Counted from the first letter of the stretch, positions 41,183 through 52,259 are shown. The stretch: DNA of 64,000 nucleotides from Desulfofundulus kuznetsovii DSM 6115 (GCF_000214705.1 NC_015573.1:1015001-1079000), one strand, 5' to 3'. A program made the numbers and translations. Notes: a model not told the origin generated them from the sequence alone.

Positions 41183-41785
41183 TCAATACTCTAACAACTC
41201 GTCGGCAATTCGTGCCAAAGTTTGCTGATCTTTTATGTTGGTTACGCGCCTGATTTTGAACTGAGCGCCGTTACACCACCAGTTACCTACTGAGGGGTCG
41301 GTTTCAAACACAAGCTCCTCTTCAAAACGATGCGGTGAAGAGCAAGACACTTTTTGCAATATTTCGTCCGGCAGTTCCAGTTTCAATAAATGGTGGGGCC
41401 ATGCACGGCGCAAATCTAAATTTTTAAGAATATCATTCACGTTCCTCGGTCGGTAGATCCCCGTAATGAAAAGGAGAGGGAAACGAAGATCGACCCCTAA
41501 TTCGCTGCAAATTTCCTTATATCCTGGTCCTCTAGTTATTTTATCCTCGATAACCTTTATTAACAGAAAAGCAAATTTATATTTTCCCTTGTGCTCGAAC
41601 ACGAAATTACCCACGTGTTGAGACTTTTCGTGGTTCCAAACGATGTAATTTGCTTCCTGCCATGCAAACGTATTTTCACCTAGCAGTCGCTCTCTAACAT
41701 AAGCGGTAAAGTCATTAAACAACAAGAGGCAGGTCTTATGAAACATGTCGACGTCCTGCAGAGTTCGTAATAGTTGCTCGTTCAA
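41183..41785 (-). CDS. Hypothetical protein, 200 aa
   Basis: The sequence is alpha/beta with a central FAFLLIKVIEDK and Trp/His-rich end (SVGNWWCNGAQFKIRRV). No family is recognised. It lies 70 bp downstream of the interrupted nuclease gene on the same strand and could be its operon partner. ATG follows GAGGGGGATTTA. Confidence 0.55.
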   Translation of the reverse strand: MNEQLLRTLQDVDMFHKTCLLLFNDFTAYVRERLLGENTFAWQEANYIVWNHEKSQHVGNFVFEHKGKYKFAFLLIKVIEDKITRGPGYKEICSELGVDLRFPLLFITGIYRPRNVNDILKNLDLRRAWPHHLLKLELPDEILQKVSCSSPHRFEEELVFETDPSVGNWWCNGAQFKIRRVTNIKDQQTLARIADELLEY

Positions 41786-41855
41786 ATTAAATCCCCCTCA
41801 CATTATTTTTCAAAATAAGCCGCCCAAATTGAATCAACGATGAAACGTCCCAAAA

Positions 41856-42137
41856 CTAATTGTGATAGAAAACCGCCATGTCGCTACCCGCCAACCCCTC
41901 TATCTCCCAAGCGTAAGTTCTTTGGTACCAGAAAAGGTGGCCCTCAGACCTATCTTTAAGCGCTGGGATCTGTGGCCAGCCGGAGAACATTACATACCCT
42001 TTAAATCGCAAATAAGTTTCCAACAATTGCAGGATCTTGTACTCTGAAGATCCTGGCAGATATTTTCCCTCATCAAGAAGACTCAAAACAAAGGAATAAA
42101 GACTGTACCTTTTTAGCCCCCTAACCATATTGGACAA
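41856..42137 (-). pseudogene. C-terminal part of the interrupted PD-(D/E)XK-like nuclease gene
   Basis: The 93-aa frame is helical (LYSFVLSLLDEGKYL, EYKILQLLETYLRFKGYVMFSGW). It fits the C-terminal half of PD-(D/E)XK proteins that end with a LExKGxxxFxGW-type motif. The N-terminal half lies on the far side of the IS3 element at 43671-44210, and the two read in the same direction. Confidence 0.6.
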
Positions 42138-42182
42138 TTCGACCTAAATTCGTAACATTATTGATAAGGGGGTTAATCTCAG

Positions 42183-42509
42183 ATGACTAGAAACAAGTAC
42201 TCGCCAGAACTAAAAATGCAGGTTGTCAAAGAAGCCATGGAAACGGGCAACGCCTCTATTGTAGCCCGCAGGCATGAAATTTGTCCCACCCTCGTTGGTC
42301 GCTGGGTAAGAAACTATAAAAGATATGGGACATTTCACCCGGTAAAAGAACAAAATAACATGCGGGAAACCTCCTATTCTTCCAGAGAATATAAAACAGT
42401 GGTGCAAGAAAATGAAAAGCTTAAAAAATTGTTGGGTGAAAAAGACCTGGAAATTGCCATTCTCCGTGACCTGCTAAAAAAAACCAACCCACACTTGCCG
42501 ATAAAATAG
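42183..42509 (+). CDS. IS3-family transposase OrfA
   Basis: The protein (108 aa) has a helix-turn-helix (YSPELKMQVVKEAMETGNA, SIVARRHEI) and a leucine-rich coiled coil (ENEKLKKLLGEKDLEIAILRDLL). It ends just after an A8 run (42476-42483) where a -1 shift would fuse it to OrfB. Confidence 0.92.
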   Translation: MTRNKYSPELKMQVVKEAMETGNASIVARRHEICPTLVGRWVRNYKRYGTFHPVKEQNNMRETSYSSREYKTVVQENEKLKKLLGEKDLEIAILRDLLKKTNPHLPIK

Positions 42510-43438
42510 AGGTTGCCAGAAAGTGGATTTCTCTGGGCTATAAAGCATCAATTGTATTGAGAATTATTGGGATTAACCGTTCCACCTATTACTACAGCTT
42601 GCACCGGTATTCCCAACCGAAAAACCGGACCTGTACTGGCGGACGCCCCGAATCCCGCTATACTCTGACGAAGGATAACACAATTATTAGCAACGAACAG
42701 GTAAAGGAATGGATTTGTGAGCTTATCGCCGGCGAAGGTCTCACCTACGGGTATTTAAAACTAACCTACTGCTTGCGGAAAAAATTCAACCTGATAATCA
42801 ATAAGAAAAAGGTTTACCGCCTCTGTAAAGAATTGGAGGTTTTACGGCCCCAAAGAAAAATCAAAAGGAAACATGCGAGAAAATTAGCCCGAAACCGGTT
42901 GGTTACTGCTTCCAACCAACTGTGGGAGGTGGACGTAAAATACGGTTATATTGCCGGGGAAGACCGTTTTTTCTTCATCATGCCCATAATTGATGTTTAC
43001 GACCGCTGTATTGTGGATTACCATATTGGGCTCTCCTGTGAAGCTAAGGATGCCGTTATTACCCTCAAAAGGGCACTTTTCAAGCGGCAGTTACTTGCGG
43101 TGGAAGGAAAGCCGGTAATCCGGTCTGATAATGGACCACAGTTCATTAGCAATCTCTTTGAGGAGACATGCCTGGAGCTAAATATTGAACATGAAAGAAT
43201 ACCCTTTAAAACGCCGAATCTAAATGCCCACATCGAGGCCTTTCATTCGATTCTCGAGGAAGAGTGCCTGTCCCGCCACGAATTCTCCAGTTACGCAGAA
43301 GCGTACAAGACGGTGGCCAGGTTTATCCGGTATTATAACACCGTTCGTATTCACTCAGCTACGCACTATTTGGCGCCGGCGGAATGTTACCAGCTTTTGA
43401 AGAAAAATCAACTGCAACTAAAGCCGGTTAAGCTATAA
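42477..43438 (+). CDS. IS3-family transposase OrfB (made by -1 frameshift)
   Basis: The DDE integrase domain has D in WEVDVKYG, D in RSDNGPQF and E in HIEAFHSILEEE. The frame is open from the A8 slip (reading NQPTLADKIEVARKW...) although the first ATG-type start is at 42557 (MRIIGINRSTYYYSL). The OrfAB fusion is the active transposase in this family. Both frames are intact, so the element may be mobile. Confidence 0.9.
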
Positions 43439-43493
43439 AAAGGCATGTTCCCTGGTGAGCCCTTGAGGGTTTTCCGGGCGGCGCCGCAGGGTA

Positions 43494-43626
43494 GCCTTGA
43501 CGGCCGGGGACCCCGCACGTGGTACAATGGATAGCCGACGGGGCGTGGCTTCTTGTCCATAGCATGTTCCCCGGAGCCGCCCCGTCGGTGGTTTCAACGG
43601 ACCACGTGCGGGGTGGCCGTCAAGGC
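43494..43626. repeat. Large nested inverted repeat inside the IS3 right part
   Basis: Outer arms of ~26 bp: GCCTTGACGGCC...CCCGCACGTGGT (43494-43523) and ACCACGTGCGGGGTGGCCGT-CAAGGC (43601-43626). Inner arms GCCGACGGGGCGTGGC (43534-43549) and GCCGCCCCGTCGGTGG (43576-43591). Not needed for transposase coding; could be a structured RNA, cruciform or a nested MITE. Confidence 0.85.
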
Positions 43627-43670
43627 CGCCGCCTGGGAATGAAATTCTTTAAAATCGTAAGATCGAAAGT

Positions 43671-44210
43671 CTAATTGTCCAATCTTAGGGGGTCAGCCCG
43701 GTACCAGCTCAACCAGTATATTTGGGCTTTCCCTCCGGAAGCTTTCCAACTGATCCAAAGATCCTCGCGAGGCATAACCCGGTGGCCGGTCAGGAAAACC
43801 ACTGCCTTTTCTGCCTTGGGATACTGTTCTACCAGGCCATTCCAGTACCTGTTAAGTTGATCAACCTCCTTGTTTCTTATTACGCCATCCTCTATGTACG
43901 CGCTACCGCTCTTGTCTGCACGATGCTTGACCTCGATGACAAGAACACAGGAACTGCCACAGTGTGTGTTCTCTAGCTTCACTAAGACGTCCGGGATGCC
44001 GCCAGCAAACCCTGTTTTCCAAAAATCAATGCTTTTTACCCGTGTGAAATTGCGTATCTGGTTACTCAAAAGTCGTTTCTCAACACTTATTGCCCGGCCC
44101 AAAAAGGAAATTAATTGCTCATCCGGCAATAAGGAAAGCAAGCCAATAGCCGTTGATGTTAAGACATCTTCCTCAACGCTAATTTTTCCGTCAATCTCCG
44201 CGTAAATCAT
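43671..44210 (-). pseudogene. N-terminal part of a PD-(D/E)XK-like nuclease gene, cut by IS3
   Basis: The 179-aa frame holds GIPDVLVKLENT and, after ~15 residues, LVIEVKHRADKSGS: the D...(D/E)xK triad of the PD-(D/E)XK superfamily. A WLSWY motif near its end joins into IS3 sequence at 43682, and the last residues (RLDN) are IS-derived. The rest of the gene is at 41856-42137. Class of nuclease (defence, repair) is unknown. Confidence 0.7.
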
Positions 44211-44388
44211 AGTTATTGATTCTCCTCTTTTGCATCTCTGCGTTTTGAAAAACCAACACTTCGCTTGTAGCTTTCGTTAAAAGTTAAATGGCGGGCTGAT
44301 TCTTATGTTGGAGCCGCGAAAAACGGCATGGCAAACATTGCGGCTATACTAAAGAAAATATTCACCTCCCTATGCCGTTTACTTCACA

Positions 44389-44703
44389 TCAAGCGCTTTT
44401 CGAACCACCTCCTCTTTTGTCAATGCGGCTACCAGATAGGTGTCCGCTGCCATGATCCTGGACCAACCCGGAGTCCAATTTATCCTTTCCGTTTCCCTGC
44501 AAAAACTCCAGAACAAGTTGCACCCCTTCCCGGCGGGTAGCAACCATCCGGGAAGTTAAATCGGCGCTTTCGTTCAAAAGGGCCTGGTGCTCAGCAGTTA
44601 ACTGACCGGGTGCCCGCAAGCTCCCAAGGGCCTTCTGAATGCCGGCAAGCTTTTTATCTAGAACGATGAGGCGGGTTGCTGCCGTTTGATAGTCAATAGT
44701 CAA
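44389..44703 (-). CDS. Hypothetical ORF, 104 aa (3' part of a split gene)
   Basis: Starts with TTG inside a heptamer repeat, with no ribosome site, overlapping the previous stop (TTGA). Sequence is helical (QALLNESADLTSRMVATRREGVQLVLEFL) with a polar Gly-rich end. Removing two heptamers would fuse it in frame to the 72-aa ORF before it (NKTIDY + QTAATRL). Confidence 0.45.
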   Translation of the reverse strand: MTIDYQTAATRLIVLDKKLAGIQKALGSLRAPGQLTAEHQALLNESADLTSRMVATRREGVQLVLEFLQGNGKDKLDSGLVQDHGSGHLSGSRIDKRGGGSKSA

Positions 44704-44715
44704 TAGTCAATAGTC
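44689..44715. repeat. Heptanucleotide tandem repeat (AATAGTC, ~3.9 copies)
   Basis: 27 bases of perfect 7-mer repeat at the exact junction of two ORFs on the minus strand. Seven is not a multiple of three, so copy-number change shifts the frame. Confidence 0.95.
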
Positions 44716-44918
44716 TTATTCACCAGACCAGACATGGTATCTTGCCATAATATTTTCCAAGTGTCGCCTATTTCCTGCAAAATATTTTCGTAAACATCCT
44801 CCCAGGTTTTGTAAGCCTGCCGCTCGATTTCCAAATCCTTCTCATCATCTTGCTTATCGTCAGTATCCCTTTTTTCTGGAGTCTTCTCTGTCGTCCCTTC
44901 TTCCCCGGCACTATTCAT
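44700..44918 (-). CDS. Hypothetical ORF, 72 aa, acidic (middle part of a split gene)
   Basis: The frame starts with a charged, disordered-looking stretch (EEGTTEKTPEKRDTDDKQDDEKD) and ends in a helix with Trp (TWEDVYENILQEIGDTWKILW). It stops within the heptamer repeat. An alternative view is that it continues the membrane ORF upstream through a one-base change at a C5 run (~44955). Confidence 0.45.
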   Translation of the reverse strand: MNSAGEEGTTEKTPEKRDTDDKQDDEKDLEIERQAYKTWEDVYENILQEIGDTWKILWQDTMSGLVNKTIDY

Positions 44919-44941
44919 TTTTGTATCCGCTAATGCCGGCT

Positions 44942-45205
44942 CTACAGACGAGGGGGCGCGAGTTCTGCCTTCGGCCCTGCCTCTAACTTGGAAGCTGCGG
45001 GCGCCAACGGTGTCTCTACAATTGAAGGCCGCTCCGTAACGGGGCCTTTTGACGGCAAGCCCAAAACCAGGCCGAGAACGAAAACCAGCAAGGAGGAGTA
45101 CCAGAAAGAAGCCAGGGCCATCTTCCAGGGCGATGCGGTGCGAAAACCGGGTACGCGCTTCAGAAAAGACCTTTTCCCTTCCTGGGGAACTTGCTGTAAA
45201 GCCAT
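44942..45205 (-). CDS. Single-TM ORF, 87 aa (5' part of a split gene)
   Basis: Basic N-terminus (KRSFLKRVPGFR), one hydrophobic helix (ALASFWYSSLLVFVLGLVLGL, ~32-52) and a proline/alanine-rich tail. The frame ends at CCCCCTCGTCTGTAG; a one-base shift in the C5 run would continue into the acidic ORF at 44918. ATG lies behind GGGAGGGAAAGATAGT. Confidence 0.5.
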   Translation of the reverse strand: MALQQVPQEGKRSFLKRVPGFRTASPWKMALASFWYSSLLVFVLGLVLGLPSKGPVTERPSIVETPLAPAASKLEAGPKAELAPPRL

Positions 45206-45231
45206 ACTATCTTTCCCTCCCGGAACGATCC

Positions 45232-45801
45232 TTAAGCTGCCTGCCGTTTACGAGCGCGACGCGGCAAGCTTTGAAAAAGCATCTTCAAAAAAGATGACCA
45301 ACCCTGGCCGGTCATCCGGTATACCTTTAAGTACGCCTCCATTTTTCGGAACAATAGGTCCCGCGGTTTAAAAGGACCTTCCTTGCTTGGCTCCATAATC
45401 GTGGATGCGCACCGCCCGAACCAGGCAAAGCTAGCCTCTAAGAAGCCGTCTTTTTTCAGGTTCCTTCGGGTAGCTTTCCAGACGCGCAAAGCCCAACCCG
45501 GATCTACGTAGACGGGCTTAAGGGAGGACCACCCGTACCTGCTCAGCTCTTTCAGGCTCCTTTTCCAGGTTGTATAATAGCCCATGGGACAGGCCCAAAA
45601 TGGAGGGTGCCTGAAGGTGTACAGCGAATCCAGGTAGTCCGCGTACAGCTCCGCCGGTGATTTACTGGGGCACAATGGCCGTTTCTCCCGGTAATAGAAA
45701 GGGGAGGGGCGCTTCCCCTTTTCTGCGCAAATCTCCCACAGTCGTACAACTTTATCCTTATAAAACGCCTCAAGGATTGTCTGGACTTTAAAGTACTTCA
45801 C
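45232..45801 (-). CDS. Hypothetical basic protein, 189 aa
   Basis: Rich in aromatic and basic residues (FRHPPFWACPMGYYTTWKRSL; C-terminus LPRRARKRQAA). No motif is recognised. It starts ~40 bp after the RAMP-like gene ends and 27 bp before the TM gene begins, so all are probably one operon. ATG start; the sequence upstream (GGTAAGCCAGGTGAAGT) gives an AGGTGA site. A nucleic-acid-binding role is conceivable from the charge but not shown. Confidence 0.6.
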   Translation of the reverse strand: MKYFKVQTILEAFYKDKVVRLWEICAEKGKRPSPFYYREKRPLCPSKSPAELYADYLDSLYTFRHPPFWACPMGYYTTWKRSLKELSRYGWSSLKPVYVDPGWALRVWKATRRNLKKDGFLEASFAWFGRCASTIMEPSKEGPFKPRDLLFRKMEAYLKVYRMTGQGWSSFLKMLFQSLPRRARKRQAA

Positions 45802-45839
45802 CTGGCTTACCTGTCATTATTCACCCCCTAAATAATTCC

Positions 45840-46748
45840 CTAGATAATTAAGGATATTTCCCTTGCCGTTAACCTGGCAAGTTTTGGTCCCAAGAACAGA
45901 CCTCCTCCGGTACGTCTGCCAAGGCCTGAAAACATCAGGCATTCCTTCCAGGCGCGCTCTTCAGAAAGGTCAAAAAGACCAGTTTCCAGATGGAAAAGAC
46001 TAACTTCAACCATGCTACCCACCGCCAGGAAAGGAAGGCTCAAGGCCGTCCTCCGGAAGATCCTGTCCGGCCGGGGCCGAAAAAGGCAGCGCCCGGGCAA
46101 AGAAAAGCAGGCGGGTAGCTCGCTGAAATCGCCGCGGCAGAAAAGTCGGGAGAATTTTTTCTTCAGCCAGAACAGCTGTGCCGGGTCGGCTAACCGGTCA
46201 AAGGGGACCACGGCGAGCCCGCGCGCCCGCCTCCTGGAAAGCCTTTGAAAGGGCGGGGCGGATTTTTTCCCCGCCGCCAGAAGCCTTCCCGCCAGCTTTT
46301 TAAGGAGATCGACAGGCAGAGGCCTGTTCAAGCCCTGAAAAGCGGCGAAGTCCTCCACTTCCACCGGAAAAACCCACGCCTCCACCTCCACCTGCAGCCG
46401 CTCGTCGGGAGGGATAAAGGGCGGGTAAGGGTGGCGGGAGCGCAAGGAGGAAACCCTCTTCGGCTCTCGCGCCACCTCCAGGGCCCACTGCCCAACTGGA
46501 TCGGCAAGGCTTTTCCGGGAAGGATCGGATTGCAGCCAGGCAGCGTAGTCCTCCCGGTCAAAAGGGACGAATTCGATATCATACCAACCCCTTTTCTCCA
46601 GACGAGCAATTCTTTCTTCCCGGGCCAGGAGAAAGTCCTTGTAGTCGTCTAAGCTGCCGCCCCGGAGCGAAAGAAAGTCCTCCGGGCAAAAAAGGACGTA
46701 AACCATGCGTTCCTTGTCGCGGGCAAACCCCATTTGTTCCAGTTCCAT
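45840..46748 (-). CDS. Protein of 302 aa with RAMP/Cas6-like C-terminal glycine loop
   Basis: The N-terminal ~120 residues look alpha/beta (VYVLFCPEDFLSLRGG, then charged helix). The C-terminal part has beta segments (LPFLAVGSMVEVSLFHLETGLFDL) followed by a helix and FSGLGRRTGGGLFLG. This glycine-rich loop after a helix resembles the C-terminus of Cas6 and other RAMP proteins (GxGxxxxxGxG). No catalytic His is assigned. It is first in the minus-strand operon, with GAGGAGGGG upstream of ATG, divergent from a WYL regulator. Function is unknown; RAMP membership needs a profile search. Confidence 0.55.
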   Translation of the reverse strand: MELEQMGFARDKERMVYVLFCPEDFLSLRGGSLDDYKDFLLAREERIARLEKRGWYDIEFVPFDREDYAAWLQSDPSRKSLADPVGQWALEVAREPKRVSSLRSRHPYPPFIPPDERLQVEVEAWVFPVEVEDFAAFQGLNRPLPVDLLKKLAGRLLAAGKKSAPPFQRLSRRRARGLAVVPFDRLADPAQLFWLKKKFSRLFCRGDFSELPACFSLPGRCLFRPRPDRIFRRTALSLPFLAVGSMVEVSLFHLETGLFDLSEERAWKECLMFSGLGRRTGGGLFLGPKLARLTAREISLII

Positions 46749-46821
46749 CGCGCACCCCTCCTCTGCACAAATTAGACGCAGAACCCGCTCTTATACCGCC
46801 AAGGGAAATTTTTTTATTTGT

Positions 46822-46849
46822 ATAATAAAAGCTATATCTTAATTACCAA
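46822..46849 (-). promoter_or_regulatory. Predicted promoter of the minus-strand operon
   Basis: Read on the minus strand: TTGGTA (46849-46844), 16-base spacer, TATTAT (46827-46822). It lies ~75 bp upstream of the RAMP-like gene start and just downstream of an operator-like palindrome. Confidence 0.5.
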
Positions 46850-46857
46850 ACTCCCTG

Positions 46858-46871
46858 GACATTCATGTGTC
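46858..46871. promoter_or_regulatory. Operator-like palindrome 1 (GACA-N6-TGTC)
   Basis: GACATTCATGTGTC, immediately upstream of the -35 of the minus-strand promoter. Shares TGGACAT...TGTCT with the second copy. Confidence 0.5.
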
Positions 46872-46920
46872 TCTTTAACGTAAAACAGAAAATTTTTAAG
46901 AGTCCTAAACCTTTCAGATG

Positions 46921-46934
46921 GACATAAGTTTGTC
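46921..46934. promoter_or_regulatory. Operator-like palindrome 2 (GACA-N6-TGTC)
   Basis: GACATAAGTTTGTC, 63 bases (about six helical turns) from copy 1, in the gap between the divergent genes. Confidence 0.5.
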
Positions 46935-47080
46935 TTGGACCACCGATTAAATACTGACAAAGGAAGATTAGTTTTTTACGTGGAATGCAGGAGAAGGTGC
47001 CCTGGTAGGCAAAAAACTAACTCTAAATCAACTGTCCGGAAAATGAAGGGAGGAACTCCTGAAAAAAGAGGTGACCGATT

Positions 47081-48196
47081 ATGCCGTATAACCCCAAAAC
47101 CGGCGACCACCCCGAGGCGGTGGTCAAAATACTGCTCACCGTCATCGAAAAAACACCTTCGGGGGGCGCCACCCTCGATGATTTAAAGGCAGCATACAGG
47201 GAAGTAAAAGACCGGGAGCCCAGCAACAAAACTATTTCCCGGATCATCAAAAGGATAAACCTGCTCTTCGACCCCCTGGCCTACGGCGAGAAAAAAGAGG
47301 AGGGAGAGGAAGACGGACACGAAGAAAAAGCCGAGGCCCGTTCCCGGGCAATTTCTGTGCGCAAGAAAAACGGCCGGGTGACCTACATATTCACGGAAAA
47401 CCTGGAAAAGGGCAAAAGCCCCCTGGATCCCGGCCTGGCTTTTCTGATGGCCCTGTGCCTTTACTCCCAGCAGCGCATCATGTTCTCAGAGCAGTTTGAG
47501 GTAATGATGAAAATAATTTTTGAGGACATTTTGAGGAAGGTGGTCAACTGGTACCGGCTGCGGCACGAAATCGAAAGGTACGTCTTCGTCTCCGGATACG
47601 CCCCGGCCAAGCCCGCAGAAAACCTTCGGCACATAGAGGACATCCTGTCGGCATTGCGCAGGAAAAAAAGGGTGAAGATAACGTATTGCCGCGCCTACGA
47701 CGGGGAGGTTACCAGGCGGGAGGTAGAGCCGTACGGGCTGCTCTGCCGGCACAACGTCTGGTACCTGGCGGGCAAGTGCTTTGAAAAAAACGAACAGCGG
47801 GTTTTTCGTCTGGACCACATCAGACGTCTGGAGATAGTAGAGAACAGCGTAGCCTCCGTTCCCTCCGATTTTTCCTTGAAAGAAGCTTACGGCCAAGCGT
47901 GGGGTGTATGGACAGAGTGCCAACCTGGAAAACCGGAAACAGTGAGGCTGAGAGTGGGGAAGGGCCTGGCGGAAAAATTCAGGGTTACCCGCTACCACGA
48001 AAGCCAGGTGAACAAAGAGCTGCCCGGGGGCGAATTAGAGGTCACCTTCACGGTCACTGGAGCGGAAGAAATGGTTCCGTGGCTCATGACATGGGGGCCT
48101 ACGTTGGAGGTTGTCGAGCCGCATTGGTTAAGGGAAGCTTTTGTGGCTAATTTAGTTGAAACGCTGAAAAATTATATTGATTATAAAACGGGATAA
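47081..48196 (+). CDS. WYL-domain transcriptional regulator
   Basis: The protein (371 aa) has an N-terminal winged helix (AVVKILLTVIEKTPSGGATLDDL), a middle helical segment, a WYL domain (KRVKITYCRAYDGEVTRREVEPYGLLCRHNVWYLAG, ~195-260) and a C-terminal WCX region. WYL regulators often control CRISPR-Cas, BREX and other defence loci and sense nucleotides or nucleic acids. Divergent from the operon at 46748; AGAGGTGACCG precedes ATG. Confidence 0.9.
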   Translation: MPYNPKTGDHPEAVVKILLTVIEKTPSGGATLDDLKAAYREVKDREPSNKTISRIIKRINLLFDPLAYGEKKEEGEEDGHEEKAEARSRAISVRKKNGRVTYIFTENLEKGKSPLDPGLAFLMALCLYSQQRIMFSEQFEVMMKIIFEDILRKVVNWYRLRHEIERYVFVSGYAPAKPAENLRHIEDILSALRRKKRVKITYCRAYDGEVTRREVEPYGLLCRHNVWYLAGKCFEKNEQRVFRLDHIRRLEIVENSVASVPSDFSLKEAYGQAWGVWTECQPGKPETVRLRVGKGLAEKFRVTRYHESQVNKELPGGELEVTFTVTGAEEMVPWLMTWGPTLEVVEPHWLREAFVANLVETLKNYIDYKTG

Positions 48197-50500: not shown

Positions 50501-52259
50501 AAAGTGTAGTGCCACGTCTGTAAATATTTAGTTTTTCTAACCTGCCTTAACATGGTATAATATCTATGCCATGTATGCCAGAACAAAAACTTTCACCAAC
50601 AAGGACGGCTCAAAAAGAACCTATGTCCAGATAGTCGAAGCCGTCAGGGAGCACGGCAAAGTGCGCCAGAAAGTGGTGGCCAACCTGGGCCGCATCGACG
50701 AACTTCAGAAAGGCAGCCTTGACTGGCTCATTGCCAGCCTGGCCAAATTCTCAAAAACGAAATGGATACAGGCCGAAGCTGATAAACTGATGGTTCACAG
50801 TGCCAAGGAATGGGGGTTGGATTTAATTTTCCGGCATCTGTGGGAACAACTTGGCCTGGACTTTATCCTGAAACGCCATTTCTCCCAGGCATACACCTGC
50901 AGCCAACTGGCTGAGGCCGTCTACGCCATGGTGCTGAACCGGATCAGCGACCCGCTTTCCAAACGGGGTGTTAATGAATGGCTCAAAGAAGTTTACCGGC
51001 CGTCCTTTGACCAGCTGGAACTGCACCATCTTTACCGTGCCCTTGATTTTCTGGCCGAATATAAAGAGAGGATAGAACTGGACCTTTTTGACAGCACCAG
51101 AAACCTGTTCGACCTGGAAGTGGACATGATTTTCTGGGATACCACATCCACATATTTTGAAGGCAGAGGGCCGGAGGAATTGGGTCGTTACGGCCACTCC
51201 AAAGATCATCGACCGGACAGAATCCAGGTAATGGTCGGCGTGGTAATGACCCGTGCCGGCATACCTATAGCCCATGAGGTTTTTCCCGGCAATACAGCTG
51301 ATGTCAACACATTCAGTCAAATCATTGCCGGCGTCCGCGAACGGTTTCAACTGACCCGGGTCGTCTTTGTAGGCGACCGGGGCATGGTCAGCCAGGATAT
51401 TCTGGAACATTTGGACAAAAATCACATCGAATATATTGTGGGTATGCGCATGCGTAAAGTCAAAGACGTGGGCGAAGTACTCAAAACAGGCGGCAGGTAC
51501 CGGACCGTCAAAGGAAACCTGAAAGTAAAAGAAGTCTGGTACGATGCTGACCGGTACATCGTTTGCCACAATCCCGTCCAGGCCGAACACGACAAAAAGG
51601 CCCGGGAGGAAATGTGCCGGAAGCTGGAAGAACAGCTTAAAAACGGCGGAATCAAATCGCTGGTGGGCAACCGTGGTTACCGCCGGTATCTATTGCTTAA
51701 CAAAGACGCCGTGGTGGGTATAGATCAGGAAGCCCTGAGAGAAGAAGCCCGGTATGATGGCAAGTACGTCCTGCGTACCAACTCTCAACTCAGTACTGAA
51801 GAAATGGCCCTGGCCTATAAAGACCTCTGGCGTGTAGAGCGGGCCTTCCGGGAAATGAAATCCAGTCTGGACCTGCGCCCGGTCTACCACTGGAAAGACA
51901 GCCGTGTCCGGGGACACATCATGGTCTGTTTCCTGGCCCTGGTCCTGGAATCGGCTTTACAGAGAAAACTGGCAGAAAAAGAAGTTGAACTGGAGTACGT
52001 TTACCTGCTCAGGGACCTGCAACAGTTAAAAGCAGTGGAACTCAGTATTGGAGAAGACAAGTACCTATGCCGCACGGAACTGGTGGGCAACGCATATGAA
52101 GCATTCAGAGCACTGGGAATCCGGCCACCCCTAAAGGTAGCTGAAATCAAAAACGACGGTGACGGCACCTGCAAACAAAGTGCTCGGACTTCCGATGATT
52201 ACCACACACCCTCATTATTGTAAAATGAAGGAAAGTGTAGTGGTACGTCTTTAATTATT
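50501..52259 (+). mobile_element. IS1634-type element
   Basis: One 550-aa transposase gene flanked by similar 28-base sequences, AAAGTGTAGTG..ACGTCT.TAA, at 50501-50528 and 52232-52259, in direct orientation. Inverted termini were not recognised, so true borders are uncertain. Confidence 0.75.
50571..52223 (+). CDS. IS1634-family transposase (IS4 superfamily)
   Basis: The protein (550 aa) starts YARTKTFTNKDGSKRTYVQIVEA and LGRIDELQ, usual for this family. DDE residues are seen in WDTTSTYF, VGDRGMVS and the C-terminal ERAFREMKSSLDLRPVYHW (E-R-x-FRxMK: the YREK-like motif). Intact frame. ATG is followed directly by the reading frame; promoter-like TATAATATC lies at 50557-50566. Confidence 0.93.
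   Translation: MYARTKTFTNKDGSKRTYVQIVEAVREHGKVRQKVVANLGRIDELQKGSLDWLIASLAKFSKTKWIQAEADKLMVHSAKEWGLDLIFRHLWEQLGLDFILKRHFSQAYTCSQLAEAVYAMVLNRISDPLSKRGVNEWLKEVYRPSFDQLELHHLYRALDFLAEYKERIELDLFDSTRNLFDLEVDMIFWDTTSTYFEGRGPEELGRYGHSKDHRPDRIQVMVGVVMTRAGIPIAHEVFPGNTADVNTFSQIIAGVRERFQLTRVVFVGDRGMVSQDILEHLDKNHIEYIVGMRMRKVKDVGEVLKTGGRYRTVKGNLKVKEVWYDADRYIVCHNPVQAEHDKKAREEMCRKLEEQLKNGGIKSLVGNRGYRRYLLLNKDAVVGIDQEALREEARYDGKYVLRTNSQLSTEEMALAYKDLWRVERAFREMKSSLDLRPVYHWKDSRVRGHIMVCFLALVLESALQRKLAEKEVELEYVYLLRDLQQLKAVELSIGEDKYLCRTELVGNAYEAFRALGIRPPLKVAEIKNDGDGTCKQSARTSDDYHTPSLL

Follow-up and report, generated by a model that had tools for sequence, protein, structure and literature searches.

A WYL regulator, an undescribed protein family and a nuclease gene split by an IS3-type element form a possible, now broken, defence locus in Desulfofundulus kuznetsovii

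This report concerns positions 41,183 to 48,196 of a 64,000-nucleotide stretch, here called the window, from Desulfofundulus kuznetsovii DSM 6115 (GCF_000214705.1, NC_015573.1:1015001-1079000), a heat-loving sulfate reducer whose genome is a single contig of 3,601,386 bases. The locus is tentatively read as a laterally acquired and now broken nuclease locus under the control of a WYL regulator, plausibly anti-phage and with exchangeable nucleases. Damage to this locus by an insertion sequence (IS) of the IS3 type and by frameshifts is supported by the sequence, and a role in defence is plausible. The narrower proposal, a doubtful one, is an undescribed anti-mobile-element system of Bacillota type with a core of the WYL regulator and a clade-B member of the family of the 302-amino-acid (aa) protein (302-family), to which exchangeable PD-(D/E)XK nucleases and small partners such as the 200-aa family are added. 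Conserved relatives exist for the WYL, 302-aa, nuclease and 200-aa genes, which points to more than chance. The features on which this reading is built are the following, where ORF stands for open reading frame:

47081-48196, plus strand: WYL-WCX transcriptional regulator of 371 aa (Pfam, PDB and orthologues)
46749-47080, no strand: intergenic region of 332 bp between the WYL and 302-aa genes, with divergent genes on either side
45840-46748, minus strand: 302-aa protein, clade B of an undescribed family (22-member alignment and tree)
43701-44210, minus strand: 5′ part of the predicted nuclease gene (60% identity with residues 1-170 of the 270-aa protein of genome G065)
42110-43700, no strand: IS3-type insertion of 1591 bp (GGTAC duplicated at 43701-43705 and 42105-42109)
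42183-42509 and 42557-43438, plus strand: IS3-type transposase ORFs of OrfA and OrfB size, named by reading
41856-42109, minus strand: 3′ part of the predicted nuclease gene, a 93-aa ORF (74 aa align at 53% with G065 protein residues 170-242)
41183-41785, minus strand: 200-aa partner protein (relatives: 59% in G065, next to the nuclease, and 63% in G140, next to a 302-family gene)

The interruption of the nuclease gene was evident from two transposase ORFs, similar ends and the 5-bp target duplication GGTAC, all as known for IS3 elements. When the flanks were joined across the empty site, one frame of 252 aa was obtained, which over 243 aa is 59% identical to the product of the intact G065 gene (270 aa). 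Because the joined flanks read through and align to two parts of the G065 protein, the 179-aa and 93-aa ORFs are, as judged from their sequences, the halves of a single PD-(D/E)XK-like gene; the length of the former is due to the 5′ frame running on into the IS as far as 43671. The PD and E-x-K residues were invariant in the proteins of the window, G065 and G363, and the D, E-x-K and DQL residues were kept across 27-60% identity, including the 271-aa protein of G363; catalysis is predicted from the motif. No curated nuclease family was assigned, since neither Pfam nor NCBIfam gave a match above cut-off and no PDB chain was matched. With its nuclease gene split, the locus would be unable to make that effector in this genome, where it is probably dead.

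The regulator was matched in Pfam by WYL (3.2e-19; 69.2 bits, cut-off 21.8) and by WCX (1.6e-13; 51.2 bits, cut-off 23.9). Among PDB structures PafBC was the best match, for the WYL-WCX half only, and other WYL structures were found as well. Orthologues with 46-63% identity were present in G062, G483, G218, G363 and G305. The N-terminus was conserved among them, and no helix-turn-helix (HTH) model matched it in the Pfam scan. To judge from its position, the intergenic region at 46749-47080 is the likely place of the operator of the WYL regulator; it holds a single AT-rich inverted repeat, and no operator motif common to the upstream regions of WYL genes was found.

A preliminary description of this DNA was upheld in part. 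It had named a divergent WYL regulator, which proved to be a true WYL-WCX protein above both Pfam cut-offs and to be separated from the 302-aa gene by 332 bp; the 200-aa ORF and the IS3 damage, located here in the nuclease gene with its 5-bp duplication, were likewise recovered. The absence of an array of clustered regularly interspaced short palindromic repeats (CRISPR) also held, as direct-repeat families and Rfam matches at the locus both numbered zero. For the PD-(D/E)XK-like nuclease the pattern stood (GIPDV ... IEVK), whereas the 179-aa ORF was only the 5′ piece of a split gene. The genes of the ORF list do exist, though several had been misread, namely the two nuclease ORFs and three small ORFs treated below.

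The same description had seen in the 302-aa protein a relative of the RAMP (repeat-associated mysterious protein) family on account of a Cas6-like glycine loop. The corresponding rival explanation, an array-less CRISPR derivative in which this protein would be a Cas6-like RNA-binding RAMP, is considered highly improbable. It could appeal to the glycine-rich stretch near the C-terminus, to WYL proteins known near CRISPR-Cas loci (PMC9122589) and to sequence resembling CRISPR repeats that lies near a paralogue in this genome. The motif (GLGRRTGGG), however, was private to the window protein, and all 21 further proteins in the alignment lack it. None of the 22 family members matched a PADLOC model, those for Cas proteins among them, at E<=0.1, and PDB profile searches returned no Cas chain up to E 10. 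Direct-repeat families were absent at the locus and no Cas gene was seen at the linked loci. RAMP identity was therefore rejected on these sequence grounds. As regards the ferredoxin-like (RRM) fold of RAMP proteins, AlphaFold2 models of the 302-family reached an unusable predicted local distance difference test score (pLDDT) of 40.8 and 33.5 with an alignment two sequences deep. The repeat-like sequence of the own-genome paralogue lies at L017:1662-4789, where repeats translated as FQSLIGRLETE are accompanied by a cas2-like gene.

The family of the 302-aa protein was defined by profile searches in 113 genomes of the class and in 398 genomes sampled from the phylum, and relatives were detected in 10 and 16 of these, respectively. 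The alignment of 22 members contains conserved Y/D motifs, a VPFD motif, a W-A pair and an S-x2-R-x2-G motif; a C-terminal R-[IV]-K tail is present in most members and missing from the window and G140 proteins. Relatives in Pfam, NCBIfam, PADLOC and PDB were not found, and PHROG gave one marginal match, for one member. The tree separated two clades and paired the window protein with that of G140 (support 100/99; 45% identity). Its nearest relative is thus from another family of the phylum and not from its own genus. The window's own genome carries two clade-A paralogues, L017 and L018, the latter in a mobile-element-like region, and contig scans found only the paralogue of Desulfofundulus australicus (86% identity).

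Conserved gene order in other genomes, proposed earlier as a check, was partly found (G062, G483, G140, G065 and G363). WYL orthologues adjoin clade-B 302-family genes in four genomes, those of the window, G062, G483 and G140. In G062 the orthologue (63%) stands directly upstream of a 302-family gene on the same strand, followed by a degraded second copy and an Mrr_cat nuclease. The G483 orthologue (55%) has a 302-family gene on each side; several genes in the vicinity read as nuclease-like, and one of these has a PDC-S11 match. G140, which belongs to another family of the phylum, has WYL remnants (74% over 57 aa), a 302-family gene (45%) and a 200-aa homologue (63%) side by side, with a UvrD-like large protein near the locus. 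A 5.3-kb contig of G065 carries the 270-aa nuclease and the 200-aa gene, which are separated by another transposase gene. Immediately after the G363 orthologue of WYL (48%) comes a nuclease homologue (E 7e-14), followed by a 196-aa gene and by AddB/AddA-like genes; homology of the 196-aa gene to the 200-aa family was not detectable. The G218 orthologue (57%) also lies by AddB/AddA-like genes, named by reading; G305 has an orthologue without such neighbours and a 302-family gene on another contig. Adjacency of WYL orthologues to AddB/AddA-like helicase-nuclease genes was recorded in two genomes, at L095:2-6177 and L096:9628-18829.

Several of these arrangements speak for a WYL-controlled nuclease locus with a possible defence function. 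WYL genes adjoin clade-B 302-family genes, and the five WYL-adjacent members all fall inside one fully supported clade of ten; the 200-aa gene is next to a 302-family gene in G140 and neighbours the nuclease gene in G065; a nuclease homologue comes straight after WYL in G363; and the D, E-x-K and DQL residues are retained across the nuclease homologues. Candidate defence-type neighbours, such as the Mrr_cat nuclease (G062) and the PADLOC candidate-defence match PDC-S11 (G483), occur near the loci of relatives. Lateral movement fits with the nearest relative in another family, with abundant IS elements and with a GC content of 46-49% across 40-46 kb versus 50-58% in most of the window. A 550-aa transposase-like gene downstream of the locus (50571-52223) is consistent with an IS-rich island.

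The same linkage data bear on the explanation that two unrelated pieces, a WYL/302-family pair and a nuclease/200-aa pair, share this island by chance and have no common function. This is considered unlikely. It would account for the G065 contig, in which the nuclease and 200-aa genes stand without WYL or 302-family genes (no 302-family gene was found in G065), for G483 and G062, where WYL and 302-family genes occur but the 200-aa gene and the nuclease type of the window do not, and for the 178-bp gap between the halves in the window. The two halves are, however, bridged in G140 by WYL remnants, 302-family and 200-aa genes and in G363 by WYL and nuclease.

The main rival is a DNA-damage or repair regulon, in which a WYL protein of a PafBC-like subfamily would control neighbours that process DNA ends (AddAB-like proteins, PD-(D/E)XK nucleases and the 302-family); this too is considered unlikely. 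PafBC is the best PDB match of the regulator, the G218 and G363 orthologues stand by AddB/AddA-like genes, and in five genomes of family f46 (L082-L085, L087) a 302-family gene stands alone in the vicinity of a dnaE-like gene and a NurA-HerA-Mre11-Rad50-like operon, names again given by reading. The f46 gene is, however, convergent with its neighbours, an uppP-like gene and the repair operon, and does not lie inside the latter. Moreover, it is more typical for defence cargo to be patchily distributed, to be damaged by IS elements, to have degraded copies and to vary in its nucleases. Because of the stand-alone f46 copies and the clade-A paralogues in the window's own genome, the 302-family may have a general DNA-handling role that was borrowed by defence or repair loci.

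Against the reading of a WYL-controlled defence locus it must be counted that the f46 genes sit beside chromosomal genes with no WYL or nuclease gene adjoining, and that the complete set was intact in no genome examined, in samples that were partial. Furthermore, adjacency of WYL to a nuclease of this type was found once only, no relatives were found in the phages, plasmids and viral contigs searched, and the PADLOC matches of the nuclease were weak, to candidate models only, with a best value of 1e-6.

If the locus was a WYL-controlled nuclease system, a mode of action may be proposed from known relatives, as WYL proteins regulate bacteriophage exclusion (BREX) systems and sit by defence loci (PMC9122589). 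The regulator would bind the divergent promoter region and hold expression down as long as its WYL pocket has not sensed a signal of infection or damage, as has been proposed for BrxR and PafBC; the ligand could, as has been suggested for BrxR, be a nucleotide or a DNA signal (PMC9122589). The nuclease would be the effector that cuts foreign DNA, and the 302-aa and 200-aa proteins might serve as recognition, scaffold or control partners. The nuclease would be swapped between loci, with the 270-aa type in the window, G065 and G363, an Mrr type in G062 and others in G483.

With BrxR of BREX the window protein shares the type of a WYL-WCX regulator, with a putative winged HTH, that adjoins a nuclease locus, and WYL regulators are among its PDB relatives (PMC9122589). 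In contrast to BREX, no BREX genes are present at the window locus, and its neighbours are the undescribed family, the nuclease and the 200-aa protein. PafBC, the mycobacterial DNA-damage regulator, resembles it over the WYL-WCX half, but is a double-unit protein of a chromosomal repair regulon, whereas the window has a single unit divergent from a laterally moved locus. The nuclease resembles the PD-(D/E)XK candidates PDC-M15A and PDC-S26 of PADLOC through weak partial profile matches and the D...E-x-K pattern. It falls below confident assignment to any named PD-(D/E)XK nuclease, and it is not Mrr by Pfam, although an Mrr_cat protein is found at the G062 version of the locus. If the reading is true, the catalogue of bacterial immunity would gain a WYL-controlled system in which nucleases are interchangeable and two protein families are as yet unnamed. 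Even under a repair regulon, defined genomes (G062, G065, G140, G363 and G483) would be available for testing the function of an unnamed family of at least 22 members.

Below the 302-aa gene the ORFs follow in the order 189-aa basic, 87-aa transmembrane (TM), 72-aa acidic, 104-aa, 179-aa nuclease-like, the IS3-type transposase pair, 93-aa and 200-aa. The first four occupy the following positions:

45232-45801, minus strand: basic 189-aa ORF, from the sequence
44389-45205, minus strand: TM (44942-45205), acidic (44700-44918) and coiled-coil-like (44389-44703) ORFs, from frames and a 7-bp repeat
44689-44715, no strand: 7-bp tandem repeat of 3.9 perfect copies in coding sequence, at the end of the acidic ORF and the start of the 104-aa ORF

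The basic ORF and the TM protein with an acidic segment had been described before and are present, the latter as a TM segment followed by an acidic one. The start of the 189-aa ORF is weak; slightly upstream, an ATG of a different frame is preceded by a better ribosome-binding site. The acidic frame continues open on the 5′ side of its own ATG, across a C run that precedes the stop of the TM ORF. This open frame and the 7-bp repeat at the second frame change indicate that the 87-aa, 72-aa and 104-aa ORFs are probably pieces of a single gene whose frame has been disrupted; the suspected frameshift damage is thereby supported. With a gain or loss of repeat copies the acidic and coiled-coil ORFs would be fused or separated, and phase variation is therefore possible. 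No relatives of the 189-aa protein were found in the 113 genomes, and no convincing or intact relatives of the other three ORFs were found. A weak match of the 104-aa ORF in G065 lay inside an SMC/Rad50-like coiled-coil protein and was discarded, and a weak match of the 87-aa ORF in G013 was judged to be TM similarity. The earlier inclusion of the basic and membrane proteins as parts of the system was accordingly not substantiated, and their ORFs, like the coiled-coil one, may be local cargo.

Some further surroundings of 302-family genes were recorded. In G061 (L020:10427-12809) the genes after a clade-A member encode an adenine methyltransferase, a PDDEXK_11 nuclease and a tyrosine recombinase-like protein, a set that resembles a mobile restriction-modification cassette. 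In family f2 two divergent copies lie within 5.5 kb beside mobile-element-like genes (L026:10140-15536), and a related genome has one copy in similar company (L024:373-1431). A 129-aa protein with 58-91% identity was common to G062, G064 and G140 and lies near WYL, 302-family and 200-aa loci (L019:12193-12582, L023:1768-2157 and L080:8555-8962).

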